Of a stretch of DNA of 47,909 nt, positions 25,204-47,563 are shown one piece after another. The position numbers were made by a program, and so were the translations under genes. The stretch lies in the NCBI GenBank assembly GCA_001797255.1, contig MGOW01000048.1:6577-54485 (forward strand). The letters are read 5' to 3'. The first letter of the stretch is position 1. Every line of letters begins with the position of its first letter. The stretch is from Clostridiales bacterium GWE2_32_10. GTDB lineage: Bacteria > Bacillota > Clostridia > Lachnospirales > UBA12420. The notes beneath the pieces are model-generated. The model did not search any database and was not told the origin of the DNA. It saw only the letters and a program-made list of their open reading frames with translations.

Positions 25204-26685
25204 ATGGAGATTGATGAAAAGTCACTAAAACAAATAGTGGAAGTTAAGTATTTAGTAGAGGAGAATTCCTTTAGGTATAGGGCTATAGTAAGATTTTTTT
25301 TTACACAGTATGAGAAAATTAAATATTGGCTTTACAAAGAAGATATATATGAAGAACTACATAAGCATGAGAGGTTTAGTTTTTATACAATGGAAATGTG
25401 CATTCAAGATTTAGAAGCATTGGTTAGATGGGGAAATATTATACCTGTTCAGGACACCTCAAAAGTACATAGCATTGATGAATTTAAAAATAAGAAGTTC
25501 AGATATAGATTATCAGAATATTCTGTAGAAATAGAGAGAATGATTATAAGACTCGAAAATCTCTTTATGGAAGGGGCCTCACTAGAGCCTACTTTATTAG
25601 AACGGCTTAAAACTTACATAAGTCAATTTAACTCTATGAGTGAAAAATCTACAAAAGAAGTTAGTATATGGTGGGATGATTTAAATAACAACTTCAAAAG
25701 ACTGAATCAAAACTATCAAGACTACATAAGGAATTTTCAAAGCTTAAAGGCTGAGGAAATGCTAAAAAGCAATGAATTTATAATATATAAAGACAAGCTA
25801 ACTGAATATCTAAGGGATTTTATAAAATCCTTACAGGATAATGCATTTATTATAGAAAGATTGTTAAAAGAGATACACTATGAAACTGAAAATCAAGTTA
25901 TAGCTAAGCTAATCGAACATAGAAAGGCTATCCCTCAAATCGAGATAGAGAAAGTAACCGACGAGCAAATAAGAGATAATATATCTGGTATATGGGAAAA
26001 TGTAAAAGAGTGGTTCCTAGGCTCAAAGGGAACTATAAGTGAGTCCGAAAAGCTACTAGAGATAACAAACGAAATAATAAGGAAAATAACTAGATATGCG
26101 GTACAGTTAGCTGAAAATAGTAGGGTAATGGTTAATAGAAAAGAAGAGTACAAAAAGATCATGGAGCTTTTCACTAAATGTAAAGATATACATGAAGCTC
26201 ATAAGCTATCGGCACATATATTCGGAATAGAAAATAGCAGACATATCAAAGGGGATATAGTAAGAGAAACCGAAAGCATAAATAGTAGCATATACAATGA
26301 AACACCAATTTACATAAACATAAAACCAAGAGTACGAAATTTCAGAGAATCAGTTGCGAGGACGTCTATTAAAGATAATACTGAAAAGAAAAAAGAAGTA
26401 TTAGAGGCGTATCTAAAGAAGATAGAAGAAGAAAAAGAGCTTATAAACAAACATATAATAGATGAAAAGCTAGATTTTAAAAATCTGCCTGAGCTTGAAA
26501 CTACTACAAGAAAGATACTACTTCGGTGGTTGGGTAAGGCGTTATCTAATGTAAGTAAGATAACTAAAACTGAGGATGGTAGGGTAGTTGAAATATTGAA
26601 CCCGAATGAGGTTGAAAGATGTAGGGTACAGGCTAAGGATGGGGCATTTGAAATGCCGGCTTATGTACTTAAGATTAGTGGATAG
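25204..26685 (+). CDS. jetA: Wadjet type II subunit JetA (DUF2397/TIGR02677)
   Basis: A 493-residue protein with the DUF2397 opening: 'FRYRAIVRFFFTQYEKIKYWLYKEDIYEEL', then 'CIQDLEALVRWGNIIPVQDTSKVHSIDEF' and 'FRYRLSEYSVEIERM'. This winged-helix and helical protein is the kleisin-like subunit of the Wadjet SMC complex, which recognises and cleaves small closed circular plasmids. GAGG six bases before the ATG at 25204 sets the start; the in-frame TTG at 25192 sits on the ribosome site. It is first in a tight jetA-jetB-jetC cluster. Family assignment comes from recalled pattern and gene order, both of which agree. Confidence 0.9.
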   Translation: MEIDEKSLKQIVEVKYLVEENSFRYRAIVRFFFTQYEKIKYWLYKEDIYEELHKHERFSFYTMEMCIQDLEALVRWGNIIPVQDTSKVHSIDEFKNKKFRYRLSEYSVEIERMIIRLENLFMEGASLEPTLLERLKTYISQFNSMSEKSTKEVSIWWDDLNNNFKRLNQNYQDYIRNFQSLKAEEMLKSNEFIIYKDKLTEYLRDFIKSLQDNAFIIERLLKEIHYETENQVIAKLIEHRKAIPQIEIEKVTDEQIRDNISGIWENVKEWFLGSKGTISESEKLLEITNEIIRKITRYAVQLAENSRVMVNRKEEYKKIMELFTKCKDIHEAHKLSAHIFGIENSRHIKGDIVRETESINSSIYNETPIYINIKPRVRNFRESVARTSIKDNTEKKKEVLEAYLKKIEEEKELINKHIIDEKLDFKNLPELETTTRKILLRWLGKALSNVSKITKTEDGRVVEILNPNEVERCRVQAKDGAFEMPAYVLKISG

Positions 26686-26699
26686 GGGAGTGATAGTAC

Positions 26700-27863
26700 A
26701 TGAATGAAATGGAGATTTTACTTGAAAACAGATGGGTAGTACGTGCAAAAGATACTGATTTGTATTATAAAGTAAAAAACAAAGTGGATGATTATAAAGA
26801 TTTTATCAAAGAGAAGCTTGGGTATAGCTTGATAATAAATCCGAGATTTATCAAGCTTGAGAAGAAGCCAGGGGCTGCTGAGTGTTTTATGGGGATTGGT
26901 GAGTTTGATTCTATAATGGAGTATATATTTTTTACGATTATGATTATGTTTTTAGAAGACAAAGGGGCAGAGGAACAGTTTATCCTTTCCCAGCTTACGG
27001 ATTATGTGCAAAGTAAATATGAGGGTAGTGAAAAGATTGATTGGACTATATATACTCATAGGCGTAGGCTTATAAAGACTCTACGTTATTGCAGTGAGCA
27101 GTATTTGATAAGGGTTACAGATGGAGATGATACTGAGTTTATAAATAGTGATGCTGGTGAAGTATTGTACGAAAATACAGGATTGTCTAAGTATTTTGTA
27201 AATAGATTTAGTGAAAATATACTGGGGTATAATTCGTGGGAGGATTTTGAAAAAGGGTCGCATGAGGATATGAATATTGACAAAGGTATATTCTTGAGAA
27301 ACAGAGTGTATAGAAAGGTATTTATGTCACCCGTTGTATATAACAAAGGAACGGACGACATAGATTATCTATACATAAAGCAACATAAGAGTGTGCTAGA
27401 AAACGATATACAAAAATTTTTAGACAGTGATTTCCATGTACATAAAAATGGAGCAATGATTTTGTTAAATGAAAACAAGCGATATAAAGAGGTTTTTTCG
27501 AGTGAAAAGAACATATCAGATATAGTATTGCAGATTAACTACGAGATACGCGAACGCATAAAAAACAAACAATTTACTCCGAAGGAAAATGATGTTATAA
27601 CAGTTTCAACATTACAATTTGAAACATTGATAGAAGATGTTAGAAATAAAAACAACACAGGATGGGGCAAAAGCTATAGGGAAATGAGGATCGGTCAAAT
27701 TATAGATGAAGTTAAGGTTTATATGTATTATTTTAGTTTTATAAATATAAAGGAAGACGAGAAAGAAATTGAGATATTGCCATTAAGCTATAAGATAGTG
27801 GGGAGATATTCGGAGGGGTTTGACGGTAAAATTAACGAGGAGGTTCGAAAAAATGACGGATAG
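26700..27863 (+). CDS. jetB: Wadjet type II subunit JetB (DUF2398/TIGR02678)
   Basis: A 387-residue protein with 'LLENRWVVRAKDTDLYYKVKNKVDDYKDFIKEKLGYSLIINPRFIKLEK' features in its first 50 residues, as in DUF2398, then 'MEYIFFTIMIMFLEDKG' and a winged-helix-like 'RLIKTLRYCSEQYLIRVTDGD'. In Wadjet this is the KITE-type subunit bound to the JetA/JetC ring. GGGGAG precedes the ATG. The last 11 bases overlap the start of jetC, the tight coupling expected for subunits of one complex. Confidence 0.9.
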   Translation: MNEMEILLENRWVVRAKDTDLYYKVKNKVDDYKDFIKEKLGYSLIINPRFIKLEKKPGAAECFMGIGEFDSIMEYIFFTIMIMFLEDKGAEEQFILSQLTDYVQSKYEGSEKIDWTIYTHRRRLIKTLRYCSEQYLIRVTDGDDTEFINSDAGEVLYENTGLSKYFVNRFSENILGYNSWEDFEKGSHEDMNIDKGIFLRNRVYRKVFMSPVVYNKGTDDIDYLYIKQHKSVLENDIQKFLDSDFHVHKNGAMILLNENKRYKEVFSSEKNISDIVLQINYEIRERIKNKQFTPKENDVITVSTLQFETLIEDVRNKNNTGWGKSYREMRIGQIIDEVKVYMYYFSFINIKEDEKEIEILPLSYKIVGRYSEGFDGKINEEVRKNDG

Positions 27864-30800
27864 ATGGAAGATAAACAAGATAGGGCTTGTGAATTTTTGG
27901 TATTATGATGATGAGGTGTTTAACTTTAATGATGGCAGACTGCTTTTACGTGGGTCGAATGGTTCAGGGAAGTCTGTAACTATGCAAAGTTTTATACCTC
28001 TTTTACTTGATGGTAATAAAAGCCCTAGTAGGCTAGATCCTTTTGGTACTAAGGCAAGGAGAATAGAAAATTACCTTATAGATGAGGGTGATGATATAGA
28101 TGAAAGAACGGGATATTTATATATGGAGTTTGTAAAAGAAGAATCAAATGCATATATGACAATAGGTATGGGGCTTAAAGCGAATAGGAATAAAAGACTA
28201 GATTCGTGGGGGTTTGTAATAACAGACGGTAGAAGAGTGGGGGAAGATTTGTACCTATATAAGGAAGTAGGGGAGCGGATACCTCTGTCTAAGAAGGAGC
28301 TAGAGAATAGGTTAAAAGAAGGTGGACAGGTTTTCGAGACTCAGAAAGAATATATGGATAGTGTAAATAAAATACTATTTGGGTATGAATCATTAGAGGA
28401 TTATGATGAGCTTATAAAGCTACTTATACAGATTAGAAGCCCGAAACTATCAAAGGATTTTAAACCAACGGTAATATATGAAATAATGTCTAACTCACTA
28501 CAAACACTTTCTGATGAGGATTTAGCTCCAATGTCAGAGGCTATAGAGAATATGGACAATGTAAAAAATCAACTAGATTATCTAGAGCAAAGTAAACGAG
28601 CACTCGACAGGATAATAAAGGATTATGATAATTATAATAGGTATGTATTAGTAGAAAAAGCCGGGAATTTAATAGATGCAAAAGGAAATTATGATAAATT
28701 AGAAAAGGAAAATACAACTCAAGCTAAAAATAAAATCGAATGTGAGCAAGCTTTTACAAAAGCAGAACAAGACCTATTAACCTTGCAGGTAGAAAAAGAA
28801 GCATTAGAAGATAAGCAAGTAAAACTAAATGCACAGGATGTTATTGGAATAAAGGATGAGCTTGAAAAAACAAGGAGGGATATAATAGAACACGAAAGCG
28901 ATAAAAAAAGAAAAGAAGCATTGCTTGACGAGAAAAAAAGCAGTGAAAGGCAGCTATCGACTAGTATAAAACGGGAAAGTGAGAGCAACGAGCTATTAGA
29001 AGAGGAAATAAAGAAAATGCTTGATGATATGAATGATTTATCTGATGATTTTAAATTTGATGAGCAAAGATTTTTAAGTGATGAAATGATTAAGGGATTT
29101 GATAAACCATATAATTTTGCATACATAAAAAAACAGGCAGTAGAGTATAGAAATAAGATAGAAGTTACACTAGATACGCTTAAGGAAGCAGAAAGAACAA
29201 GCAAGGAATATGATAAAAAGCTAAAAGAAGTTGAGGATACAAAAAAACTAAGAGATGACAAAAATAGAAAAATGCAAGAATCGTATAATTTAATGCAGGA
29301 AGTTAAAGAGGAGACCATCGAAAAGATTTATGCATGGGAAAAAGACAACAGTATATTTAAAATAGAAAAGGACAGGCTTGTAAAATATGCCCAACTGATA
29401 AGTAGCTACGGAGAAACTGATACTTATGGGCAAGTAAAGGATTTATTGCAACAAGAAAATGAGGCATGTCGTTCGGTATATAGCACGTCTATAAACGAAT
29501 ATAAGGCGGAAAAAAATAGGCTAGAAAAGGAAATACTAGCAAAAGACTCTGAAATAGATGAGTGGAAAAACAAAAAAGAGCCCGAACCAGAAATGGAAGA
29601 TAAGGTAAGAAAAAATAGAGAAAGACTAAAAGCTAAAAATATACCATTTATACCTTTATATAAAGCCATAGATTATAAAGAAGACATAGAGGAGGATTTA
29701 AAAGGGATAATAGAGGAAGCATTTGTAGATATGGGAATAATCAATGCTTTGATTGTCGAGCCTAAATATAAGGATAGCATACTCGCGATGGACAAGGATA
29801 TGGCTGATAAATACATATTTGCAGAGCCTCAGTACTTCAAGATTGAGTTGTCACAGTATTTAAAGATTGAAAAAGAGAACAAAGAAGAAGTAAATAAAGA
29901 ATATATAGATAGCGTTATAAGAAGCTTCATGGCACATTCCGAGGAAGCTATAGTGCCTTATATAAAAGAAGACGGGGAATATAGGCTTGGAGTTATAAAT
30001 GGGAAGGTATCAAGAAGCTACACTCCAAAATACATAGGAATACAAGCTAGGAAAAGATACAAGGAGCAGGTTATTGCCGATTTAACGCAAGAACTAGAGA
30101 ATATAAAAAGTCTAAAAGCTGAAGCTATGACGAAGATAGAAGAATTGATGGAAAAGATAAGAATACTTGACTCTGAATACAAAGCATTCCCAAGCAAGGC
30201 TGATTTAGAGGTTGCAAACAGGGATTATAAAAATGCAAAATTTGAGTATGACCAAGAGGTTTTGAAATTAGATAAAATTCAAAAAGAGGTAGATATAGTT
30301 TATAAGGAGCTTAAAGATTTTAAAGAAAGGATTATCGAACAAACGGATAAAATATTTATAAGACCGATAGATGCAGAAACCTTTAAAAAGGCGCTCGAAG
30401 ACATAGAAAGCTACAAAAATAAATTATTCGAGCTTGAAGGAAAGCATGTAAAATATGTTACTAAAGGTGAGCAAATCATTTCGTTAAAAGACCAAGACGA
30501 GCAAATAATATCAGATATAGATGAGATTATTTATGATATAGAAAAAGTAGTAAAAAACATACGAATTGCTGAAGAAAAGGTAGTTAACTATGAAAAACAG
30601 CTTAGCCTTACAGACTATGAAAAGATTAAAGAAGAGATAGATTATTGTAGTAAAAGGCTAACAGAGATAGAGACTGCAACAAATGAAAACATAGAGAAAA
30701 AGGCGACGTTACGAGAACGAATTGTGCACCTTACACAGAAAATAGAGATGTCTCAGGTTCTGATTTATAAAGCGAAAGGGCTATATAAAGTATTCGAAAA

Positions 30801-31938
30801 AGGATATCATGATGAGTATAAGCTGGGTTATGTAATTAATATAGAAGAAAAGATGGATATTCTAAAGCCAGAGACAATTTACGATGAGTATAAGGGAATG
30901 ATAAAGGCAAATAAAAGCCTAAGTGAATATTCAGATATACTAATTCAAACTATAGAGAAGAACATAAGTGACTTGCGAGATTATACGATAACGACTGGGC
31001 ATATATTAGGAACTGATGAAATATTTGAAGACAAGGACATCACTGAGGCTAACAAGAAACAAAGAAGATTAGATATAACTGCTCAAATACAGGGTAGGAA
31101 GGTTAATGTATATATTCTGAAGAAAAATATTGAGAACGATATAGAGCAAAATAAAAACACTCTAAAAGAAAGTGATAGAGAGCTATTTGAAGATATTCTA
31201 GCAAATACTATTGCAAAGAAAATAAGGGCGAAAATATACCACAGCAAAAACTGGGTAGAAAAGATGAATGCACTTATGGAGTCGATGAATACATCAAGTG
31301 GGTTATCATTTAACCTAAGCTGGAAGAATAAAAAAGCAGAAACAGAGGATCAGCTAGATACTAAGGAATTAGTAGATATACTATTACTAGATGCCAATTT
31401 ACTAGGGAATGAGCAACGTGAAAAGCTATCAAGACATTTCCGTTCTAAAATATCAGAAGCCAAAAGCAAGCTAGAGGATGAGGGCAAAACTAAAACCTTT
31501 CATATAATAATGAAAGAATTGCTCGACTATAGGCAATGGTTCGAGTTTCAGCTATATTATCTAAGAGAAGGCGAACGTAAGAAAGAGCTAACCGACAATG
31601 CATTCTTCACCTTTAGTGGTGGAGAAAAAGCCATGGCAATGTACGTACCACTATTTTCGGCAGTGTATGCCAGATACGAAAACGCAAGACCTGACTGTCC
31701 ACGTATAGTTTCGCTAGACGAAGCCTTTGCGGGTGTGGATGAGAATAATATTAGGGATATGTTCAGGCTCATGATAGAGCTCGATCTAAGCTTTATCGTA
31801 AACTCTCAGATACTATACGGGGATTATGATACGGTACCAAGCCTATCTATTGCGGAGCTGATAAGGATTAACAATGCGAAGTATGTGTCGGTGATACGGT
31901 ATAGGTGGGATGGGAAGGTAAAGCAGTTGATTGTGTGA
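27853..31938 (+). CDS. jetC: Wadjet type II SMC-like ATPase JetC (TIGR02680)
   Basis: A 1361-residue SMC/Rad50-like ATPase, the motor that extrudes plasmid DNA loops in Wadjet. It opens 'RWKINKIGLVNFWYYDDEVF' with Walker A 'GSNGSGKS' at 34-41 (K40). Two long coiled coils (about 240-600 and 740-1080) flank a hinge-like middle. The C-terminal lobe has the ABC signature 'FSGGEKAMAMY' near 1253 and Walker B 'IVSLDEAFAGVDE' near 1284. No frameshift was seen, and length matches the family. GAGGAGG at 27837-27843 fixes the ATG at 27853; 11 upstream codons in the same frame are not needed. The partner nuclease gene jetD is not next but 4.2 kb downstream. Confidence 0.95.
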   Translation: MTDRWKINKIGLVNFWYYDDEVFNFNDGRLLLRGSNGSGKSVTMQSFIPLLLDGNKSPSRLDPFGTKARRIENYLIDEGDDIDERTGYLYMEFVKEESNAYMTIGMGLKANRNKRLDSWGFVITDGRRVGEDLYLYKEVGERIPLSKKELENRLKEGGQVFETQKEYMDSVNKILFGYESLEDYDELIKLLIQIRSPKLSKDFKPTVIYEIMSNSLQTLSDEDLAPMSEAIENMDNVKNQLDYLEQSKRALDRIIKDYDNYNRYVLVEKAGNLIDAKGNYDKLEKENTTQAKNKIECEQAFTKAEQDLLTLQVEKEALEDKQVKLNAQDVIGIKDELEKTRRDIIEHESDKKRKEALLDEKKSSERQLSTSIKRESESNELLEEEIKKMLDDMNDLSDDFKFDEQRFLSDEMIKGFDKPYNFAYIKKQAVEYRNKIEVTLDTLKEAERTSKEYDKKLKEVEDTKKLRDDKNRKMQESYNLMQEVKEETIEKIYAWEKDNSIFKIEKDRLVKYAQLISSYGETDTYGQVKDLLQQENEACRSVYSTSINEYKAEKNRLEKEILAKDSEIDEWKNKKEPEPEMEDKVRKNRERLKAKNIPFIPLYKAIDYKEDIEEDLKGIIEEAFVDMGIINALIVEPKYKDSILAMDKDMADKYIFAEPQYFKIELSQYLKIEKENKEEVNKEYIDSVIRSFMAHSEEAIVPYIKEDGEYRLGVINGKVSRSYTPKYIGIQARKRYKEQVIADLTQELENIKSLKAEAMTKIEELMEKIRILDSEYKAFPSKADLEVANRDYKNAKFEYDQEVLKLDKIQKEVDIVYKELKDFKERIIEQTDKIFIRPIDAETFKKALEDIESYKNKLFELEGKHVKYVTKGEQIISLKDQDEQIISDIDEIIYDIEKVVKNIRIAEEKVVNYEKQLSLTDYEKIKEEIDYCSKRLTEIETATNENIEKKATLRERIVHLTQKIEMSQVLIYKAKGLYKVFEKGYHDEYKLGYVINIEEKMDILKPETIYDEYKGMIKANKSLSEYSDILIQTIEKNISDLRDYTITTGHILGTDEIFEDKDITEANKKQRRLDITAQIQGRKVNVYILKKNIENDIEQNKNTLKESDRELFEDILANTIAKKIRAKIYHSKNWVEKMNALMESMNTSSGLSFNLSWKNKKAETEDQLDTKELVDILLLDANLLGNEQREKLSRHFRSKISEAKSKLEDEGKTKTFHIIMKELLDYRQWFEFQLYYLREGERKKELTDNAFFTFSGGEKAMAMYVPLFSAVYARYENARPDCPRIVSLDEAFAGVDENNIRDMFRLMIELDLSFIVNSQILYGDYDTVPSLSIAELIRINNAKYVSVIRYRWDGKVKQLIV

Positions 31939-31973
31939 TTGAAAGATAAAATTAAATATGAGGAGAGATATTT

Positions 31974-32432
31974 ATGGATAAACCAGAATACTTATATCAC
32001 GGAAGCAGTAAGCTTTTTGATATTATTAAGCCATTTCAAGCGTATGATTGGGCTAATGAGCAAGGAAATCAGAAGGCTGTATTTGCAACAGCAATTGAAA
32101 AGATAGCGTATGCTTTTGCATTAGGAACTATCCCTGATGAAACAGGAAACTGTGGGCGTATAATAAATCCAAAATACAGTAAAGAGTTCAAGATGATTTT
32201 TCATAGAGGGCATCCTAATTTTGGTGGTAAGGGATACGTGTATAAAATGTCAAGTGAAGGTTTCGTTCATGCAGGTGGGGAGCAATGGGTAAATCCTTTA
32301 CCAGTAGTTCCCGTAGAAATAAAAGAAATAGAAGTAGATGATTATTTGCATTTATTTCGTTATGCTACCGAGGAGGAAAGAGAGGATATAGAAAAAGATA
32401 TAACTGATGCGTTAAGAGATAAGTTGGAATAA
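31974..32432 (+). CDS. Small protein with a possible ADP-ribosyltransferase-like fold
   Basis: A 152-residue soluble protein. 'LYHGSSKLFDIIKP' near the N-terminus and 'QKAVFATAIEKIAYAFALG' around residues 34-52 resemble the His and Tyr motifs of H-Y-E type ADP-ribosyltransferases, and 'VPVEIKEIEVDDY' could hold the third residue. This is pattern recognition only. It has a good ribosome site (GAGGAGAG) and starts 35 bases after jetC, probably on the same mRNA, with an HD-domain gene 16 bases downstream. It is not a known Wadjet subunit. Confidence 0.5.
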   Translation: MDKPEYLYHGSSKLFDIIKPFQAYDWANEQGNQKAVFATAIEKIAYAFALGTIPDETGNCGRIINPKYSKEFKMIFHRGHPNFGGKGYVYKMSSEGFVHAGGEQWVNPLPVVPVEIKEIEVDDYLHLFRYATEEEREDIEKDITDALRDKLE

Positions 32433-32448
32433 GGAGAGGGAGGCAAAT

Positions 32449-33075
32449 ATGAGAAGTATTACAGCTATATATGAATTATACAAAATACCAGAAAGTCTTC
32501 AACTCCATATGCTAAGGGCTGCTGCCATAGCTAAACAAATCGTAGATAACTGGGTAGGTCCAGAGATTAATGGAGATTTTATACTTAAGGTTCTATTACT
32601 CCATGATATGGGAAACATAGTCAAATTTTCTGATGATGATTTAACACAGGAACAAATAAAGTTAAGAAAAGAGATTGTTAATAAATATGGTCATGATGAT
32701 CATGTGATATCAAACCAAATAGCAAAAGAACTTGGATTAAATCAAGAAGAGCTTGATATGATGGATGCAAAGATATTTATAAAAAATGATTTAACAGTGA
32801 ATTTAGATAGTTATGAAATAAAAATAGGAGCATATGCTGACCAAAGGGTTGCACCTGACGGAATATACTCTATACGAGAACGATTAGAAGAAGCAAAGTC
32901 TAGGTATAAAGATAAACCTGGCTCAAGTATGAATAACTCTAGGACTGATTTGCTAATGGAATGTGCATATGAAATAGAAAAGCAGGTTATGATGCATTGT
33001 AATATAATGTCCGAGGATATAAATAATGAGAGTGTGCAGGGTGTGGTGGAGGATTTGAAGGGATATGAGGTTTGA
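32449..33075 (+). CDS. HD-domain phosphohydrolase-like protein
   Basis: A 208-residue protein with the metal-binding HD superfamily pattern: H20 in 'LQLHMLRAAAIA', H52-D53 in 'LLLHDMGN' and a late Asp in 'YADQRVAPDG'. HD proteins hydrolyse phosphate esters, often nucleotides; the substrate here is unknown. AAGGAGAGGGAGG lies before the ATG. It appears to be co-transcribed with the preceding small protein and jetC. The IS3 element begins about 90 bases after its stop. It could be an accessory of the Wadjet locus or cargo inserted in it. Confidence 0.75.
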   Translation: MRSITAIYELYKIPESLQLHMLRAAAIAKQIVDNWVGPEINGDFILKVLLLHDMGNIVKFSDDDLTQEQIKLRKEIVNKYGHDDHVISNQIAKELGLNQEELDMMDAKIFIKNDLTVNLDSYEIKIGAYADQRVAPDGIYSIRERLEEAKSRYKDKPGSSMNNSRTDLLMECAYEIEKQVMMHCNIMSEDINNESVQGVVEDLKGYEV

Positions 33076-33439
33076 AATTTATAAGAATATATTGATATTC
33101 TATACTACATAGCCCGGATAGACCTTTTTACACAGATTAATTTACACCCTCCTTATGTCAATAGTCCGGACACATTTTTCGATTTTTTTTATTTTAGTTG
33201 TTACAGTCCAGAGGTCATAATAGTTAAAGAATATAAATCGTAGGGGTCGTACCTTGTGTCGACCCATAAAGTTGGGGTAGCTTACTTAAATAAAGTTATA
33301 GACGAAATACAAATTTTTTAATAAACATATAATTATTATTAACCATAACCAGGTCGACACAAGGTACGACCCCTACGATGAAAATAACAATGTTAATTGT
33401 AAAATATACATATCTTCTGAACTGTAACTTTTAGTCACA
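33076..33439. other. Intergenic stretch holding one IS end and a nested palindromic element
   Basis: This 364-base gap contains about 90 bases of AT-rich DNA without a feature, the left end of the IS3 element (near 33167), a 143-bp palindromic insertion (33237-33379) and about 60 bases of IS DNA before the transposase stop. No gene is seen. Confidence 0.7.
33237..33379. repeat. 143-bp MITE-like palindromic element nested in the IS
   Basis: Perfect 28-base inverted repeats (33237-33264 and 33352-33379), beginning ATCGTAGGGGTCGTACC, flank an 87-base AT-rich core with no open frame. It lies between the transposase stop codon and the IS end, so it entered the IS after or before its last move. 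No target duplication is evident. Confidence 0.85.
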
Positions 33440-34249
33440 TTATGCCGCTGCCCCAAACTCTGTAGGACTTTTATACCCTAGCTTTTCTTGTATCCTTTTT
33501 CTGTTGTAAAAACTTTCTATATATTCAAAGATACTCTTTAATGCATCCTCATACGTTTCATATTCCTCCACATATATCAATTCTTTCTTTATTGATGCAT
33601 GAAACGATTCTATACATGCATTATCATATGGACATCCTTTTTTATTATATGATTCTACCATTCCATATTTCTTCAACATTCTCCTATATTCTGAACTTGT
33701 GTATTGACTTCCTCTATCTGAATGCACTATTGTTCCTCTAGGCTTATTTGCCCTCTTTACCGCATTTTCTAACGCTTTTTTTATTAATTCTACTGTCATA
33801 CTTTTATCAAACGTCCAGCCCTTTTTTTCATTGTTGTATATATCCATTACTGATGCTAAATAGCACCAACCATCTTTCTTTGTCCATATGTACGTTATAT
33901 CTGTTACCCATTTTTCATTTGGCTTTTGGGCTTCAAAGTTTTGCTCTAGCTTATTTTCGTATTCTTGCTTTTCTTCCTCCTTCTTCCTGCTTTGCAGTTT
34001 ATACTTCTTTACTACTATTGATTTTACGCCTTCTTCCCTCATTAATTTTTGTATTCTTGGTAAACCTACTTTATATCCCTTTTTTATTAGTATTGCTCTT
34101 ATTTTTGGCGATCTATATCTTTTCTTACTTTCTTCCCAGATTTTCTTTATCTTTCCTTTCAGTTTTTCATCTTCTAATTTTCGCTTCCCTGGTCTTTTTT
34201 CTAGCAGTTCGTAATACCTGCTCTTTGATATTCCCAGTGTTTTACACAT
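33440..34249 (-). CDS. IS3-family transposase OrfB (DDE integrase core)
   Basis: A 269-residue transposase catalytic part: a HTH_21-like segment ('GISKSRYYELL', 'SPKIRAILIKKGYKVG') then the rve integrase core with D ('WVTDITYIW'), D ('IVHSDRGSQYTS') and E ('NACIESFHASIKKE') all present. The frame is open upstream of the ATG and joins orfA by a -1 shift near the A-rich CAAAAGTAAAAAG at the orfA stop, the usual route to the OrfAB transposase. The catalytic part looks intact, but OrfAB production is compromised by the orfA nonsense codon. Confidence 0.93.
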   Translation of the reverse strand: MCKTLGISKSRYYELLEKRPGKRKLEDEKLKGKIKKIWEESKKRYRSPKIRAILIKKGYKVGLPRIQKLMREEGVKSIVVKKYKLQSRKKEEEKQEYENKLEQNFEAQKPNEKWVTDITYIWTKKDGWCYLASVMDIYNNEKKGWTFDKSMTVELIKKALENAVKRANKPRGTIVHSDRGSQYTSSEYRRMLKKYGMVESYNKKGCPYDNACIESFHASIKKELIYVEEYETYEDALKSIFEYIESFYNRKRIQEKLGYKSPTEFGAAA

Positions 34250-34308
34250 TTTTCTTACTGGATATTCTTCTTTGTTTTTTGTTACTATTTCTGCGATTTC
34301 TTCGCTTT

Positions 34309-34578
34309 TTACTTTTGAGCAAATATGGCGGTAGCTTTTTTTAGTATTTCATTTTCCATTCTTAATTTATTTATTTCTTTTTTTAGTTCCTTAATTTCTT
34401 CTGCTGTTAATTCCTCATTTTCTATTTTTACTTTTTTTCTTGCATTTACCCATTTATTTAATGCTGAACTACTTACGCCATATTCACTCTCGATTTCTTT
34501 CGCTGTTTTACTTGCGTTATAAAGTTCTACTATCATTTATTTGAAATCTTCTGTATACTTTCCTCTTGTCTTGCTCAT
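34309..34578 (-). pseudogene. IS3-family orfA interrupted by a nonsense codon
   Basis: The expected start is the ATG at 34576-34578 behind GGAGCG, giving MSKTRGKYTEDFK followed by TAA at 34537-34539 where the family normally has Gln (CAA to TAA). Reading continues in frame with 'MIVELYNASKTAKEIESEYG', an HTH_Tnp_1 helix-turn-helix, and a leucine-zipper-like helix to 34309. Reinitiation at the ATG immediately after the stop (34536) could still give a 75-residue protein lacking the first 14 residues. Confidence 0.85.
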
Positions 34579-34685
34579 TTTTCTACACGCTCCTTTTCTA
34601 TGATTTTATTATATCATATCCCGAATAACGTGTCCACTCTTTTATTATACCACCAATTTGCTTATTTTGGTATATAAGAAATTTA

Positions 34686-34714
34686 TTGACAAATGTAAAA
34701 AAGTGGTATATAAT
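34686..34714 (+). promoter_or_regulatory. Consensus sigma-A promoter upstream of the CHC2 zinc-finger gene
   Basis: TTGACA (34686-34691), exactly 17 bases, TATAAT (34709-34714): a perfect consensus, lying 50 bases beyond the IS end. It should drive the zinc-finger gene and, without an intervening terminator, jetD. Confidence 0.9.
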
Positions 34715-34747
34715 GTAAAGTAAAAATTTAGAAATGGGTGATGATAT

Positions 34748-36061
34748 TTGAGTACACAATTTGATAAAATGGATGAACTAATCAATACTGGGGAATTGGA
34801 AATAGATGATATTGGAACTTTGAGAATAGAAAGAGAAACATTAGCAAGAGTTAAAGATGGTTTTACAGCCAATATAGTTAAAATTGAGTATGAAAATGTA
34901 AATGGTTATGAAGATAGAAATGGCTTATTAAAAATAACTTCAACGGATAATTTTGTGAAATATAAACTTATATTTGATCAATATAGTTATAAAGGTAATA
35001 TAGGCAGGGGATATGAAAGTGTTCTAGATTTAGAGGGTAATAAAATATATACAAAGGTGGATTATTCACGGCGAGTAGGAAAAAATTATTTAACGCAAAA
35101 GGTATATAATAGTCATATTAAACCAGTAGATGTTATAGAAATGAGTGGAACAAAAGGTGAGGAATATACTGTTGTGATTAATCGTACTAGTGATAAAGAG
35201 CGAATCAATATAATAAAAAGTAATTCGAGTGGAAGAGAAAAAGTTTGTGAGGTGTCAAAAGACTATTTAGCGGAGATGAGTGAAAAATATAGAGGAGATA
35301 AAATATTTGATACTGATAAACTGATGAATGAAGATGAGCAATATTTTAGATTTTTTGAATGCTTAAAAGAGATTTATTATACTGGAGCAATAAAGGTGTT
35401 TAGCCAAAATGTGGATAAGTTAAATATAAATTTTAATCAATTTTATAATTATATAAGTGAAACTTGTAATATAAATGATTTTGACGCTTTTGTAGAAGAA
35501 AAAAGAGGACAAGAAAAATGGAACAGAAGCGTACCGATACCAATTAGAGTAGAAACGGGATTTAAATATAAGATTGGAAATAATTATAATAAATATTATT
35601 CAAAAGAAGCTATAGCAAAGTTAAGAAAAGTTACAGATATAATGTTACTAGTAGCTGAGTATATACCAATATTATATGGAAAGGGTGAAAAATGTGTTCG
35701 TACACCATGCTTTTTTCATGAAGAAAAGACACCGTCTTTTACTATAAATAGAGAAGCACAATTATGCTCTTGTTTTGGGTGTAAAACAGGTGGAAATGTT
35801 ATAGATTTTGTTAGGGCAGCAGCTAAAAGTTTGAGTTTTGTTGATGCTTTAGATTATTTAGAACAAAGAGCGTTACATATAGGGAGTTTGGATAGGGAAC
35901 TACCAAAGATTACACATGAAGAATGGATTAGTGAGAAAGCGAAGAACGAGGAGAAGAAATATATGAGTGCAATAGATTGGTATACTAGAAATGACGAAAA
36001 TTCTATAGGTGATGGTGAAGTGGATATTGAAGATGAGGGATTAGACTATGTACCATTTTGA
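34748..36061 (+). CDS. Protein with a C-terminal DnaG-type CHC2 zinc finger
   Basis: A 437-residue protein of unknown function. Residues 1-300 match no family known to me. Near the C-terminus, C321-x2-H324 in 'CFFHEEKTPSFTI' and C342-x2-C345 in 'CSCFGCKTGGNVIDFV' form a CHC2 zinc finger as at the N-terminus of bacterial primases, followed by an acidic tail. The Toprim catalytic core of primase is absent, so this is not a working DnaG. The finger probably binds single-stranded or template DNA. TTG at 34748 is the likely start, with GGGTG seven bases upstream. It precedes jetD by 79 bases and shares its transcript. It may be a Wadjet accessory or part of a separate insertion. Confidence 0.75.
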   Translation: MSTQFDKMDELINTGELEIDDIGTLRIERETLARVKDGFTANIVKIEYENVNGYEDRNGLLKITSTDNFVKYKLIFDQYSYKGNIGRGYESVLDLEGNKIYTKVDYSRRVGKNYLTQKVYNSHIKPVDVIEMSGTKGEEYTVVINRTSDKERINIIKSNSSGREKVCEVSKDYLAEMSEKYRGDKIFDTDKLMNEDEQYFRFFECLKEIYYTGAIKVFSQNVDKLNINFNQFYNYISETCNINDFDAFVEEKRGQEKWNRSVPIPIRVETGFKYKIGNNYNKYYSKEAIAKLRKVTDIMLLVAEYIPILYGKGEKCVRTPCFFHEEKTPSFTINREAQLCSCFGCKTGGNVIDFVRAAAKSLSFVDALDYLEQRALHIGSLDRELPKITHEEWISEKAKNEEKKYMSAIDWYTRNDENSIGDGEVDIEDEGLDYVPF

Positions 36062-36140
36062 ATTAATATAGTATGGCAAAATTATAAGAACTTTAATTTT
36101 GTAAATGTGAAAACACTCACATCAAACGGAGGTAGATGCT

Positions 36141-37406
36141 ATGCAAAAAGAATGTATCAAATATTTCAAAAACACTCCCGCATTTAAACGCCTTCTAGAA
36201 GGTCTCAGGAAAAAATACGAGTCCTTAGACGGCATTGGTGGGAATATACATATAAGAAATCTCTCAATGGCTGAACGTGAAACTTTCTCAGGCTTTTTCC
36301 GTGAGGATTTTTATAATAAGAAAAATGCAAATATACCAGTTAAAAAAATTCAAAAAGCTTTAGATAACTCAAGATTTAAAGGGGTTTTGCTAAAGGATAT
36401 TATTGATGATTACTTTGGAGAAGAGGTAGTATCAAATAAGCAAAGGAATGAAAATTATAATAGAGATAAAGAAATATTTTTTGAAGACATACTAGATGGG
36501 ATAACTGATAAAGCACTAAAGAGTATGCTGCAAGAAGAGAAAAACGGATTGTCTAAAATGATAACTCAAATATATAATTTGAGCCAACAGAAACTAAAAA
36601 ATGCGATATTGACACTTGATAAGTCGGTTTGTAATCTACCATACAAAAATAATACAAAAGAAACCCTACCTGTATTTGCATCTAACATAACAAAAGACCC
36701 ACATGCATTTGACGACGGTACGATAAATCTAAAAATGCTGATAAATTATTTATGTGTGTTAAACCAAAGTGGAGTCCCAAAAAATGTAGAGGAAAAGAAC
36801 GAACTTTTGTATAGTGTAGGTCTCATAAAAGACGATATATCAAGCTTTACATTCTCAAAGGGGCTTATTGCAGTCAAAAAATCAACTATACATAGCGGAT
36901 GGCAAGGCTTTTACGATAATAATGAGATATTGCAGATTAGTGTGCTAAATCTAATGGAAATTGACGAGATTATAGTGCCACAAAGAAAAGTTTATGTAGT
37001 AGAAAATCCTATGATATTTAGAGAGATTGTAAATAGTACAGAAAATGACGTAGCTATAGTTTGTACCTATGGACAACTACGACTAGCATCAATATTTCTT
37101 TTGGATATGATAATAAAAGGTGGTAACGAGTTAGTTTACTCAGGAGATTTTGACCCAGAAGGGATAATGATAGCGGACAAGCTAAAGTTGAGGTATAAAG
37201 AAGCTTTAAGCCTATGGCGGTTTGGTATAGATGATTATGAGAATGCGGTATCTAATATAGTGATAACGGAAGCAAGACTAAAAAAGCTAGATAAAGTAGC
37301 AAGTAATGAACTAAAAGAAGTGGCTAGATATATACAGGCCACTAAAAGAGCAGGGTATCAAGAAAATATAGTAGATTTATTAAGGGGCGATGTCTTGCGC
37401 GGATAA
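36141..37406 (+). CDS. jetD: Wadjet type II nuclease subunit JetD (DUF2399, Toprim-like)
   Basis: A 421-residue protein. The N-terminal part ('FKRLLEGLRKKYES', 'LSMAERETFSGFF') resembles the TIGR02679/DUF3323 region. The C-terminal DUF2399 domain is Toprim-like with E288 ('VYVVENP') and D336/D338 in 'YSGDFDPEGIMIAD', the metal-binding acidic residues. JetD cuts plasmid DNA once the JetABC motor has extruded it. All residues expected for activity are present. A GGAGG site precedes the ATG. Normally jetD follows jetC directly; here it is in a separate transcript behind the CHC2 gene. Its last 27 bases overlap the converging MATE gene. Confidence 0.93.
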   Translation: MQKECIKYFKNTPAFKRLLEGLRKKYESLDGIGGNIHIRNLSMAERETFSGFFREDFYNKKNANIPVKKIQKALDNSRFKGVLLKDIIDDYFGEEVVSNKQRNENYNRDKEIFFEDILDGITDKALKSMLQEEKNGLSKMITQIYNLSQQKLKNAILTLDKSVCNLPYKNNTKETLPVFASNITKDPHAFDDGTINLKMLINYLCVLNQSGVPKNVEEKNELLYSVGLIKDDISSFTFSKGLIAVKKSTIHSGWQGFYDNNEILQISVLNLMEIDEIIVPQRKVYVVENPMIFREIVNSTENDVAIVCTYGQLRLASIFLLDMIIKGGNELVYSGDFDPEGIMIADKLKLRYKEALSLWRFGIDDYENAVSNIVITEARLKKLDKVASNELKEVARYIQATKRAGYQENIVDLLRGDVLRG

Positions 37407-38900: not shown

Positions 38901-38929
38901 TTGACTTATGGGAAAATATGTTATATAAT
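38901..38929 (+). promoter_or_regulatory. Consensus sigma-A promoter of the two-gene unknown cluster
   Basis: TTGACT (38901-38906), 17 bases, TATAAT (38924-38929), 43 bases before the ATG at 38973. An open frame beginning at 38901 starts inside the promoter and should not be used. Confidence 0.87.
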
Positions 38930-38972
38930 GCTGATTAAGATTTTTAATATAATACAAGGAGAGATTGTAAAG

Positions 38973-40223
38973 ATGGACATTAAAAATGATTTAGATTTAA
39001 AGAAAAGAATGGAGAGACTTAAGCTATATCAAAAACTTAATTTTAAAGGAATATTTAATATGTTTATTGAGAAAAAGGCAGGAGATATTCTTAGTGGTAT
39101 TGGAGCTAAGTTTGGGGAAAATTCTAAAACAAAAGAAAGCTTGATACGAAGATTTCTATTAATCTTATCAGATATTCAAGATGATTTATTTGTGGATGGT
39201 AATAAACATGAGGCAATGATAAGCAAAGGTAAGAATCCTTCACCATTAGCACTTTTAGGGATACGGTCAACAACTATATATGTAAATGATAAAGGGAATG
39301 TAGTATTTAAAAAATTGGATATGCCTCGTAGTAACATTGATGAATATGATTTGGAAAAAGATGTAATTAAAACTACAGAAGTTGCACATGAAGAAGAATT
39401 CGTTACAAGAAGAGTAGATGGAGAAATAGTTAGTACTTCACAAATTAACTTTATGAGCAGAGTGGAGTTAAATAAAGTACTACTAAAGTTGCATGAAGGC
39501 GGGCTAACAATGGGTGAAGCACTAGAAAAAGCAAAAAACGGGCAACAAGTATTACTTGAACAGATTGTAACTCTAAAAGATAAATATGGATATCTTAAAA
39601 AAGCATTAGAAGGGGAAGTTGCTCATAGTGATGAAGTATCTAAAAAATTTGTAGACATGATGAAAAGGTTTGGCAATGCAGGACAAAAATTATTTGATGA
39701 AAATTTAGGGAAAGAAGGTAATAAGGGGGAAAATAAATATCGTGAATTTTTTACGGTCATGACTGATATATATGGAGAAGAATTAGCCAAAATGTGTGCT
39801 AGGTATATTAGTGATAAAAATTTTAATAATATTGGAGTAGCAGAGAAAGAAGAAAAAAATAAATTTACTATAGAGGAAGCTATAGACGCTGTTTATGCAA
39901 CAGGGGTTGTTCCAAATGATGCATCGCTAATAGATATAAGAATAAAGGATGAATTACTGGAGATTGCTAGATTTGTTAACGGAATACCAGTAAAAGATGC
40001 AGTTGATATGGCATTAAATACGGGGAAAGGGTTACCAAATAAAAACTGTTTTGAATCGGATGAAGCTTTTGAAGATGCGTTGGATGAGGTTAAATTTTTT
40101 AGAGGGATCTCAATATCTGAGGGTATAGAAGAAGCTAAAGAGACTGGAGTTGCACCAGATTGGGACGATTTTAGGACAGATGAAGAAGCTCAAATAGCAT
40201 ATAACGAAATAGCTTTATTATAA
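38973..40223 (+). CDS. Unrecognised soluble protein with repeated C-terminal motifs
   Basis: A 416-residue, acidic, probably cytoplasmic protein. AAGGAGAG nine bases before the ATG at 38973 sets the start. The N-terminal part has no known domain. The last 120 residues contain a degenerate repeat: 'EEAIDAVYATGVVPND', 'DAVDMALNTGKGLPN' and 'EGIEEAKETGVAPDW', each a short helix followed by TG-x2-P. An earlier 'MGEALEKAKNGQ' may be a fourth. The pattern is reminiscent of small helical repeat arrays used for protein contacts. A second unknown gene starts about 70 bases downstream and probably works with it. Confidence 0.7.
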   Translation: MDIKNDLDLKKRMERLKLYQKLNFKGIFNMFIEKKAGDILSGIGAKFGENSKTKESLIRRFLLILSDIQDDLFVDGNKHEAMISKGKNPSPLALLGIRSTTIYVNDKGNVVFKKLDMPRSNIDEYDLEKDVIKTTEVAHEEEFVTRRVDGEIVSTSQINFMSRVELNKVLLKLHEGGLTMGEALEKAKNGQQVLLEQIVTLKDKYGYLKKALEGEVAHSDEVSKKFVDMMKRFGNAGQKLFDENLGKEGNKGENKYREFFTVMTDIYGEELAKMCARYISDKNFNNIGVAEKEEKNKFTIEEAIDAVYATGVVPNDASLIDIRIKDELLEIARFVNGIPVKDAVDMALNTGKGLPNKNCFESDEAFEDALDEVKFFRGISISEGIEEAKETGVAPDWDDFRTDEEAQIAYNEIALL

Positions 40224-40293
40224 GAAAATGTAAGTATAAAGAAAGTAATGTATGTTTATAAGGGTAATGGATATATGGATATGGAGGTATTAC

Positions 40294-42435
40294 GTGAGTA
40301 GGGAAAAACAGAAAAAGTATATAGAGGATCCTAAAGTTACAACAGCATTAGCAGTAGCTGAAAGAATAGCGGATATGAAAGAAAAGAATATTATCTTTGA
40401 AAAATTGGCTGTATATTATGCTGAAATGTGGGTAAGTTGTGATAAAACAATTGCACATTTTACGTTTGATGCTAAATATGATAGAGCATTAGCTTATTTA
40501 AATGGAGGAGATGAAGCCAGCATTGAAAAGGTGCAAGCTTTACTAGATACGATAGAACGAGCATATAAGGAAAATGAATTACCTGTAGAGGACAAAATGG
40601 TAAAGTCGAGTTATAACGAACTTGCTGAGAATAAATATACATATTATGATAAAGATGGATTGCTTGTAGCTAAAATTAAGACAGATGATTATATACAAGG
40701 AAAATACCTTGGAGAGATAAATATAAATGGCTTTGTAATAGATGCAGGTGTAATAGAAAAAATAAATACTATGTTTCCAAATACAAGGAGATTAGTATTT
40801 AAGGATTGTACAATAAAGGAAGACGTAAGATTTAATGTATTTAATAAACTAAGCCAAATTGAAATAAAAGATTCTAAATTAGAAGATTTCTACTCATTTA
40901 ATTACATAGGTATAAATTCAAAAGATAAAGTAACAATAGATTTAAAAAATATTACGGTAGAAAAGAATGAAAAAGTTCTAGATTTAAATAATGTGGATTC
41001 TATAACATTTGATATAGTGAATATGGATTACGCTAATTTTTTTACATCTACACTAGCTAGCAATTTAAAGAATATTATTATTGACAAAGCATCTAAAAAG
41101 TTGAAAGATGAGAAAGAAGTGTATGTAGGTATTGGAAAAGAAAAGACTATGTATTATGGTCCTCTTGATTTAATACATGCTTTTTATAACCTAGAAAAAT
41201 TATATACGAATGTAAAGGTTATGCATTTAGATTTTCTAAACAGGCTAAATAAACTAGAGACAGCTGAGGGGTTTGACCTTATTCTTGATGATGTAAAGCT
41301 TAAGAAAAATCTAATGAAAGAATATGAAGAACTGGTCATAGCGAGGGGAATGTTAGCTAAGTATGAAGATAATCACATTAGCTTAAATAGAATGCTTAGT
41401 GGTATAAAGAAAGATGAAGTACGTATGCTGAAAAAATTTTATGAGTATATAAAGGTAATGCCTAGTGATATTGAAAAATGGTCACGGAAAGATATAGGCG
41501 ATATTGGAAAGGCTATAGAAACTATAAAGCAAATAGAAAAACTTCCTATAGATAAAAGGTATTCTTTAGGTAGAAAAGAATTCAACGGTATAATAGAAAT
41601 TGGGAATCCAAGCTTAATGTTGCTTAATGACAGAAATAGTGAAACGATTATAGCTGATAAAAGATGTAAGGTAACAGAAAAGAATTTATTAGTAGGAAGT
41701 CCTTTAGAATATAATGACAAGACAGAAAAAATTTATATTGCTGAACCTAAAATTAAGCATATGCCAATATATAGTAGGCATAAAGAATATAATTTTCCTG
41801 ATATAGAAGCTGCTGAAAAACGGGTATATGATTTAATAGCACGAGAAGAATATAGAAAGCTAAATCCGAAAATAAAAAATGAAGCTGCTAGAAAAATTAT
41901 AGAGCAAGGAGAGTCTGAGTATGCTCAGTGGGATTTAGAAAATTTTTGTGGCTATATTGAAGAAAGAGGTAGCGTATTATACGCATTACTAATGCAAAGT
42001 TGTAGATATGAGAAATTAGCCGATGAAGATATTTATAAACTAATAGGGGGAGATGTACCTTTTGTATATAGGAATGGAGTTTATTATAAGGATTTGATTG
42101 AAATATATTTAAGACAAACTAATGAGGATAGGACGATGGTTGATGCGATAATGATTGAGGAAGAACAAAAGTATCAAGAAGAACAGAGAAGAGTGGAATC
42201 TGTGTACAATATGTTGGATAAAACTAAAGAAATAGTGGATTTTCTATGTAGCAATGAGGATGTATTTAATAGTATGCCAATAAATGATATGGCATATATA
42301 CGCAATACAGTATTTAATGAAGAATACAGAACGCTAGAAACTGTTGATAATATATATAAGCAATTGATTGCACCTGATAAGATTATGGATTTGGTAGATG
42401 GAAATGACGATGTTATGTTAGATATGGAAGGATAA
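40294..42435 (+). CDS. Large unrecognised protein with a repeat-like middle region
   Basis: A 713-residue protein without signal peptide or membrane segments. GGAGGT (40283-40288) points to the GTG at 40294 rather than the ATG at 40252. Residues around 130-330 alternate short hydrophobic beta strands with polar turns ('LVFKDCTIKED', 'LSQIEIKDSKLEDF', 'LKNIIIDKASK'), resembling a leucine-rich-repeat-like solenoid. The C-terminal part is helical and charged. No catalytic motif was recognised. It shares the promoter of the preceding gene and is followed by a terminator, so the two form one unit. Confidence 0.7.
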   Translation: MSREKQKKYIEDPKVTTALAVAERIADMKEKNIIFEKLAVYYAEMWVSCDKTIAHFTFDAKYDRALAYLNGGDEASIEKVQALLDTIERAYKENELPVEDKMVKSSYNELAENKYTYYDKDGLLVAKIKTDDYIQGKYLGEININGFVIDAGVIEKINTMFPNTRRLVFKDCTIKEDVRFNVFNKLSQIEIKDSKLEDFYSFNYIGINSKDKVTIDLKNITVEKNEKVLDLNNVDSITFDIVNMDYANFFTSTLASNLKNIIIDKASKKLKDEKEVYVGIGKEKTMYYGPLDLIHAFYNLEKLYTNVKVMHLDFLNRLNKLETAEGFDLILDDVKLKKNLMKEYEELVIARGMLAKYEDNHISLNRMLSGIKKDEVRMLKKFYEYIKVMPSDIEKWSRKDIGDIGKAIETIKQIEKLPIDKRYSLGRKEFNGIIEIGNPSLMLLNDRNSETIIADKRCKVTEKNLLVGSPLEYNDKTEKIYIAEPKIKHMPIYSRHKEYNFPDIEAAEKRVYDLIAREEYRKLNPKIKNEAARKIIEQGESEYAQWDLENFCGYIEERGSVLYALLMQSCRYEKLADEDIYKLIGGDVPFVYRNGVYYKDLIEIYLRQTNEDRTMVDAIMIEEEQKYQEEQRRVESVYNMLDKTKEIVDFLCSNEDVFNSMPINDMAYIRNTVFNEEYRTLETVDNIYKQLIAPDKIMDLVDGNDDVMLDMEG

Positions 42436-46555: not shown

Positions 46556-47563
46556 GTGGAGGCAAAAAAGACAAAAGAAATAAGTCCTGATGAATTGTGG
46601 AAGGCGGTAGTAGAAGATATGTTTGAAGAATTTGTAGAATATTTTATGCCAGAACTATACAAAGAAATAGACTTTACAAAAAAATATGATTTTTTAGAGC
46701 AAGAACTGCAAAGACTATTTAGGAAATCAAAAACCAGAAAAAATATATCAGATAAACTAGCAAAAGTGTATCTAAAAAACGGACAAGAAAAATGGATACT
46801 GATTCATGTAGAAATACAAGGGTATGATGACAAAAAATTTGGAGAAAGGATGTTTAAATATTTCTATAAAATATATGATAAATATAAAAAGGATATAAGT
46901 GCCATAGCTATATTTACAGATGATAAAGAAAACTACAAGCCCAATAAATACGAATACAAATTTTATGGAACAAATATATTATATGAATATAATACATATA
47001 AAGTATTAGAACAAAAAGAAGAAGAAATACTAAGACAAGAAAATCCATTTGCACTAATAATACTAGCAGGACTATACAGTATAAAAAGTAAACGAGTAAC
47101 AGATGAAAAACATAAATTCAAGGTAAATCTAATAAAAATACTAAAGGACAAAAAATATACAAAAGAAAAAATACATACTATATTTAACTTTATAGAAGGA
47201 ATAATAAGACTACCAGAGGAAGAAGAAAAGATATATAAAGAAGAAATAGAAAAAAATATAAAGGAGGCGAGAGAACCTATGGGAATGAAAGAACTGATAA
47301 CCAAATATGCTAGGGAAGAGGGACTAGAACAAGGACTAGAACAAGGACTAGAACAAGGACTAGAACAAGGACTAGAACAAGGATTAGAACAAGGATTAGA
47401 ACAAGGATTAGAACAAGGAATGAAAAAAGGTAAAATGGAGAGAAATAGGACAATAATAAAAAATATGCTAAAAAGTAATCTAACAGAGGAACAGATAGTG
47501 ATGTATACAGGCTTAACGGAAAATGAAGTTAGAGAAGTTATAAAACTTATAAACGAAGAATAA
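46556..47563 (+). CDS. Rpn family PD-(D/E)XK nuclease with GLEQ tandem repeats
   Basis: A 335-residue protein of the Rpn (formerly YhgA-like transposase_31) family. The N-terminal nuclease core includes 'ELYKEIDFTKKYDFLEQEL', 'ISDKLAKVYLKNGQEKWILIHVEIQG' (the E-x-Q of the PD-(D/E)XK fold) and 'FKYFYKIYDKYKKDISAIAIFTDD'. A middle helical part leads to eight exact GLEQ units (about residues 256-287) and a helical C-terminal domain. Rpn proteins are DNA endonucleases; some act in phage defence as toxins restrained by a short protein from their own 3' end. A matching internal start is present here. The GTG start has AAAGGGG about 11 bases upstream. It is monocistronic with a terminator behind. 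Confidence 0.88.
   Translation: MEAKKTKEISPDELWKAVVEDMFEEFVEYFMPELYKEIDFTKKYDFLEQELQRLFRKSKTRKNISDKLAKVYLKNGQEKWILIHVEIQGYDDKKFGERMFKYFYKIYDKYKKDISAIAIFTDDKENYKPNKYEYKFYGTNILYEYNTYKVLEQKEEEILRQENPFALIILAGLYSIKSKRVTDEKHKFKVNLIKILKDKKYTKEKIHTIFNFIEGIIRLPEEEEKIYKEEIEKNIKEAREPMGMKELITKYAREEGLEQGLEQGLEQGLEQGLEQGLEQGLEQGLEQGMKKGKMERNRTIIKNMLKSNLTEEQIVMYTGLTENEVREVIKLINEE
47279..47563 (+). CDS. Possible internally initiated short Rpn protein (RpnS-like)
   Basis: In frame with the nuclease gene, AAGGAGG (47261-47267) is followed 11 bases later by ATG at 47279 (and another at 47285). Translation there would give a 94-residue protein made of the GLEQ repeats and the C-terminal domain, without nuclease. 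Published work on Rpn proteins describes such intragenic products that bind and inhibit the full-length nuclease. The spacing is a little long, so it remains a prediction. Confidence 0.6.
   Translation: MGMKELITKYAREEGLEQGLEQGLEQGLEQGLEQGLEQGLEQGLEQGMKKGKMERNRTIIKNMLKSNLTEEQIVMYTGLTENEVREVIKLINEE
47321..47416 (+). repeat. 12-bp tandem repeat, eight copies, inside the Rpn gene
   Basis: Five copies of GGACTAGAACAA followed by three of GGATTAGAACAA; each encodes GLEQ. The unit is a multiple of three, so copy-number change by slippage keeps the frame. Confidence 0.97.

Follow-up and report, generated by a model that had tools for sequence, protein, structure and literature searches.

An intact type II Wadjet locus with unrelated genes embedded between jetC and jetD in a Clostridiales bacterium

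Genes of an addiction type can lie inside other defence loci, as the CreTA modules do within type I CRISPR-Cas loci, and the ADP-ribosyltransferase DarT is part of another such arrangement. In this experimentally studied precedent, DarTG2 lies within a type I restriction operon, with hsdS on one side and hsdR on the other (PMC12255303). The PDC families of PADLOC were defined by 'guilt-by-embedding' (PMC12988326), and embedded defence genes are the subject of a preprint by Payne et al. 2024, as cited in PMC12988326 and PMC12255303. Here we describe a locus in which the host operon is a type II Wadjet system. It resembles other type II Wadjets in having four subunits encoded in the order A-B-C-D on one strand, a jetB/jetC overlap and conserved Toprim residues in JetD, and it differs from them in that jetC and jetD lie 4.2 kb apart, separated by three coding genes and a dead insertion sequence (IS), whereas elsewhere their median distance is 4 bp. 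The arrangement is of a known kind that is rarely met with Wadjet as the host operon.

The window, by which we mean the whole stretch of 47,909 nucleotides that was analysed (G000:C48:6577-54485), belongs to a genome assembly of 1.87 Mb. Its jet genes follow one another in the order jetA-jetB-jetC-jetD on the + strand between 25204 and 37406. jetA (25204..26685, ATG at 25204) encodes the kleisin (DUF2397), jetB (26700..27863) the KITE-type subunit (DUF2398), jetC (27853..31938) the SMC ATPase and jetD (36141..37406) the Toprim nuclease. The preliminary description, made from the sequence alone, had named these genes as a type II Wadjet and proposed a search with four curated models. All four proteins passed the respective cut-offs: JetA with TIGR02677 (302 bits, cutoff 166), JetB with TIGR02678 (138 bits, cutoff 125), JetC with TIGR02680 (849 bits, cutoff 463) and JetD with TIGR02679 (204.5 bits, cutoff 196). 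JetA was also matched by PF09660 (452 bits), JetB by PF09661 (288 bits) and JetD by PF11796 and PF09664, and the best PADLOC matches were type II models throughout (JetA2, 3.5e-192; JetB2, 1.7e-135; JetC2, E=0; JetD2, 1e-142). The overlap of jetB and jetC noted earlier is real, the jetC ATG at 27853 lying inside jetB with 11 nt shared between the two genes. So too are the intact key motifs: in an alignment of 64 type II JetD proteins E288, N289 and D338 occupy invariant columns and the residue at D336 is conserved in 63 of the 64, and JetC retains 74 of 75 near-invariant columns (at least 95% conserved). All four jet open reading frames are full length. By these sequence criteria, the locus is a bona fide type II Wadjet with all four genes and their key residues intact. 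That JetD might prove to be an unrelated DUF2399 protein, an outcome which the preliminary description had allowed for together with failure of the models, did not come about, since it is of type II and groups with the JetD that a sister species encodes in a jetABCD locus of its own, in a clade with support of 100/99.

The 3' end of jetD abuts a convergent MATE gene. Beyond the latter, at 38901-42435, lie genes of 440 and 727 aa that belong to no Pfam family, the first of which was not found in two sister genomes. Further on, at 46556-47563, lies a gene whose product carries successive GLEQ repeats towards its C-terminus and resembles, by eye, an Rpn/PD-(D/E)XK-type transposase-family protein.

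Between the jetC stop at 31938 and the start of jetD at 36141 there are 4202 bp. The preliminary description had placed two small genes, an IS3 element and a zinc-finger gene there; the small genes encode proteins of 152 aa and 208 aa, the latter with an HD domain, and the last gene encodes a CHC2 zinc-ribbon protein of 437 aa. The spacing was surveyed in type II loci from genomes of the same order, class and phylum and from Caloranaerobacter, and the window locus proved far from the norm, with 4202 bp set against a median jetC-jetD gap of 4 bp over the 59 loci in which both genes are intact and share a strand. Gene inserts of more than 500 bp at this junction are rare, being found in 3 of the 59: the window locus, the sister species (G002) and an unrelated genome (G965). 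The remaining 56 carry no such insert, so the earlier statement that jetD follows jetC directly in known type II loci holds for nearly all of them and not for all; direct adjacency is the usual type II arrangement rather than a defining feature. In plasmid records, by a coarse check, jetC and jetD were close together wherever both could be located. Fisher's test of the genus (2/2 loci) against the rest gave p = 0.0035, a value that is descriptive only because the two same-genus loci are related and form one clade rather than two independent draws. Three further candidates were rejected: a 745-bp insert (L112) and a 726-bp B-C insert (L120), each owed to a split jetC reading frame, and a 428-bp B-C gap without a convincing gene (L040). 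Two type II jetD genes (L098 and L121) were seen at a distance of about 13 kb within the contig G732:C61, where one of the loci looks eroded, with jetA, a jetC remnant and jetD.

The first embedded gene (31974..32432, + strand, 152 aa) begins 35 bp after jetC. Searches of Pfam, PHROG, PADLOC and NCBIfam gave no match for it, and relatives were present in 5 of 294 other genomes of the same order. Its pattern YLYHGS...VFAT...AFAL resembles PARP-type ADP-ribosyltransferases, and H9, G10 and S11 are invariant in a three-sequence alignment; the HGS motif and the layout recall the PARP type, and the protein may be an ADP-ribosyltransferase. The only phage match was a weak one (27%) to an Acinetobacter phage record, and an AlphaFold single-sequence model (pLDDT 37) was unusable. 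One relative (L140:1495-2412) is part of a fusion protein that also includes a GNAT acetyltransferase domain, and at another locus (L141) a GNAT-like gene lies, by eye, 3' of the relative. The second gene (32449..33075, + strand, 208 aa) follows 16 bp after the first; its HD motif is LLLHDMG, and it scored 21.6 bits with PF01966, just below the gathering score of 22. Plasmid searches with both genes and a phage search with the second yielded nothing useful. In the product of the third gene (34748..36061, + strand, 437 aa), residues 285-374, towards the C-terminus, form a CHC2 zinc ribbon of the DnaG type (PF01807, 67.7 bits); according to Pfam the protein has no Toprim domain, so that it lacks the combination of CHC2 and Toprim that marks a DnaG primase. 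A sequence search of the PDB returned DnaG alone, for the CHC2 part; the N-terminal 270 aa had no relatives in phages or in 289 other same-order genomes, G002 included, and a single-sequence AlphaFold model was again unusable. A viral-contig search gave no useful relatives of the embedded genes, and none of the three matches a PADLOC defence model on its own merits, what matches there are being weak or owed to the shared CHC2 domain.

The IS3-family element (approximately 33156..34650, - strand; NF033516, 302 bits) is degraded. Its orfB lies at 33440-34249 and its orfA at 34309-34578, both on the - strand, and orfA is interrupted by an in-frame stop at codon 14 (translation MSKTRGKYTEDFK*MIV). 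No second full copy of the IS was found in the genome, and no matching target duplication at its ends was recognised by eye. Inside the left end of the IS lies a MITE-like repeat of 229 bp (33200..33428, no strand assigned) with 13-bp terminal repeats GTTACAGTCCAGA/TCTGAACTGTAAC, a target duplication TTTTAGT and an internal perfect palindrome with arms of 28 bp (ATCGTAGGGGTCGTACCTTGTGTCGACC). A second copy, 92% identical, is present at G000:C43:9207-9429 (L092), and partial copies of the MITE occur in the sister genome as well. The IS looks like a degraded late passenger, and both it and the MITE seem to be later arrivals, given that the IS is dead and that a comparable gap in the sister contains none. 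The earlier idea of a locus split by insertion is right in placing an IS3 element in the gap, but an IS is not the main cause of the split, which is best read as something other than a single IS-driven event.

Downstream of the IS, the consensus promoter of the preliminary description was recovered as a perfect sigma-70-type match, TTGACA-17-TATAAT (34686..34714, + strand, 12/12), the only perfect one on either strand of the window. It is predicted 33 bp before the third gene, upstream of that gene and jetD, between which no terminator-like site was detected, and it could drive the two together. The surrounding segment at 34673-34720 (TTGACAAATGTAAAAAAGTGGTATATAAT) recurs as numerous short matches of 78-94% in each of the genus's three genomes, which suggests a conserved type of strong promoter. 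Function as two transcripts, as had been proposed, is plausible given this promoter between the IS and jetD, and the spacings of 35 and 16 bp around the first two genes, together with the perfect promoter, fit such a division.

G002, one of two other family genomes compared, is the sister species, and its JetC and JetD are 66.5% and 48% identical to those of the window. Within one contig, its jetC/jetD gap carries a GNAT acetyltransferase gene and a RhuM gene in tandem and in the same direction, without any IS or transposase found in that gap, and its jetB/jetC gap carries a 129-aa gene and a gene for a BRO-N protein, again in the same direction. The RhuM protein matches PADLOC PDC-S05 (3.7e-156) and the BRO-N protein PDC-S13 (1.7e-118). 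The cargo thus differs between related loci, and because this gap is filled by other genes in the sister species, the jetC/jetD junction appears to take up extra genes, which are probably defence-related; the earlier suggestion of a locus gaining accessory genes is supported. In G965 the C-D insert is a ribbon-helix-helix/PIN pair, arranged as is typical of toxin-antitoxin genes, and represents the simplest case of a recent gain, because its near sister G907 has a gene-free spacer of 167 bp there. G001 was considered as an empty site and set aside as not a clean one: it has the MFS flank gene (68% identical), but other genes come next, and a search for JetD in G001 gave none.

Set beside the PDC families, the window locus shares the presence of unrelated + strand genes (the three embedded genes) between core genes of the host system, and the sister locus carries PDC-S05 and PDC-S13 themselves; the host operon here is a Wadjet, however, and the window cargo matches no PDC model. 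The likeness to DarTG2 lies in a conflict module placed between the recognition and nuclease genes of a host operon and in the first gene, which like DarT may be an ADP-ribosyltransferase, whereas no DarT or DarG homology was found in the window with Pfam and PADLOC, and the partner gene encodes an HD protein rather than a macrodomain protein. With CreTA the locus shares an addiction-type gene inside a defence locus, but no RNA antitoxin or repeat-like element was identified in the window. Different cargo in sister loci and the PDC candidates of G002 fit with genes embedded in immune operons.

An insert of this kind might instead have inactivated the system or be in the course of dismantling it, in which case jetD would have been cut off from the jetABC transcript, the amount of JetD would be mismatched and the locus would be decaying. 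The presence of an IS3 element and a MITE in the gap, the IS itself decayed, and the end of jetD against the convergent MATE gene would be in keeping with such a course. We consider it possible though unlikely, as the jet reading frames are full length and their residues conserved despite 34% JetC divergence from the sister, a perfect promoter stands upstream of the gene preceding jetD, and the C-D genes of G002 lie in tandem on the same strand without a transposase. That the contig wrongly joins two assembly pieces at the IS is extremely improbable: the assembly, 91.9% complete, consists of 104 contigs and IS copies do cause misjoins, but no other full copy of this IS was found there, which argues against one, genes other than the IS directly adjoin both jetC and jetD, and the sister locus has the same kind of gap within one contig.

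The embedded genes could also be true Wadjet accessory factors, the CHC2 protein for example binding DNA and aiding JetD, so that the locus would be a lineage-specific split variant. DnaG combines a CHC2 zinc ribbon with Toprim, and here a Toprim-less CHC2 gene sits just before the Toprim gene jetD with nothing like a terminator detected between them; yet the N-terminus of the CHC2 protein has no relatives among the 289 other same-order genomes, that of the sister included, the gene preceding jetD in G002 is RhuM and not a CHC2 gene, and nothing links the CHC2 protein to Wadjet elsewhere, so we hold this to be very unlikely. A recurrent landing site for independent defence or addiction modules at the type II jetC/jetD junction, combined in this lineage with the rewiring of jetD to a separate promoter and to a new DnaG-type zinc-ribbon protein that modulates the nuclease, is quite improbable. 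On balance we favour, with appreciable doubt, an intact type II Wadjet in which genes of a conflict type become embedded at the junction of jetC and jetD.

On this favoured reading of an embedding site, the system would work like other Wadjets, with loops on circular DNA extruded by JetABC and the plasmid cut by JetD. Small conflict-type genes would have settled between the core genes. The first two genes would ride on the jetABC transcript, and the third gene and jetD would be transcribed from the strong promoter beside the dead IS. The passengers would not be needed as Wadjet subunits; they probably act on their own as a further defence or addiction module, or bind the host to the locus, although the cargo could be neutral hitch-hikers. 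The arrangement also makes one ask whether plasmid restriction depends on transcription of jetD together with jetABC. Genes that lie within immune operons have proved a fruitful source of new defence candidates, and the window offers as putative candidates the ADP-ribosyltransferase-like/HD pair and the CHC2 zinc-ribbon protein. Taken with the sister locus, the window locus suggests that Wadjet serves as a host operon for embedded cargo.
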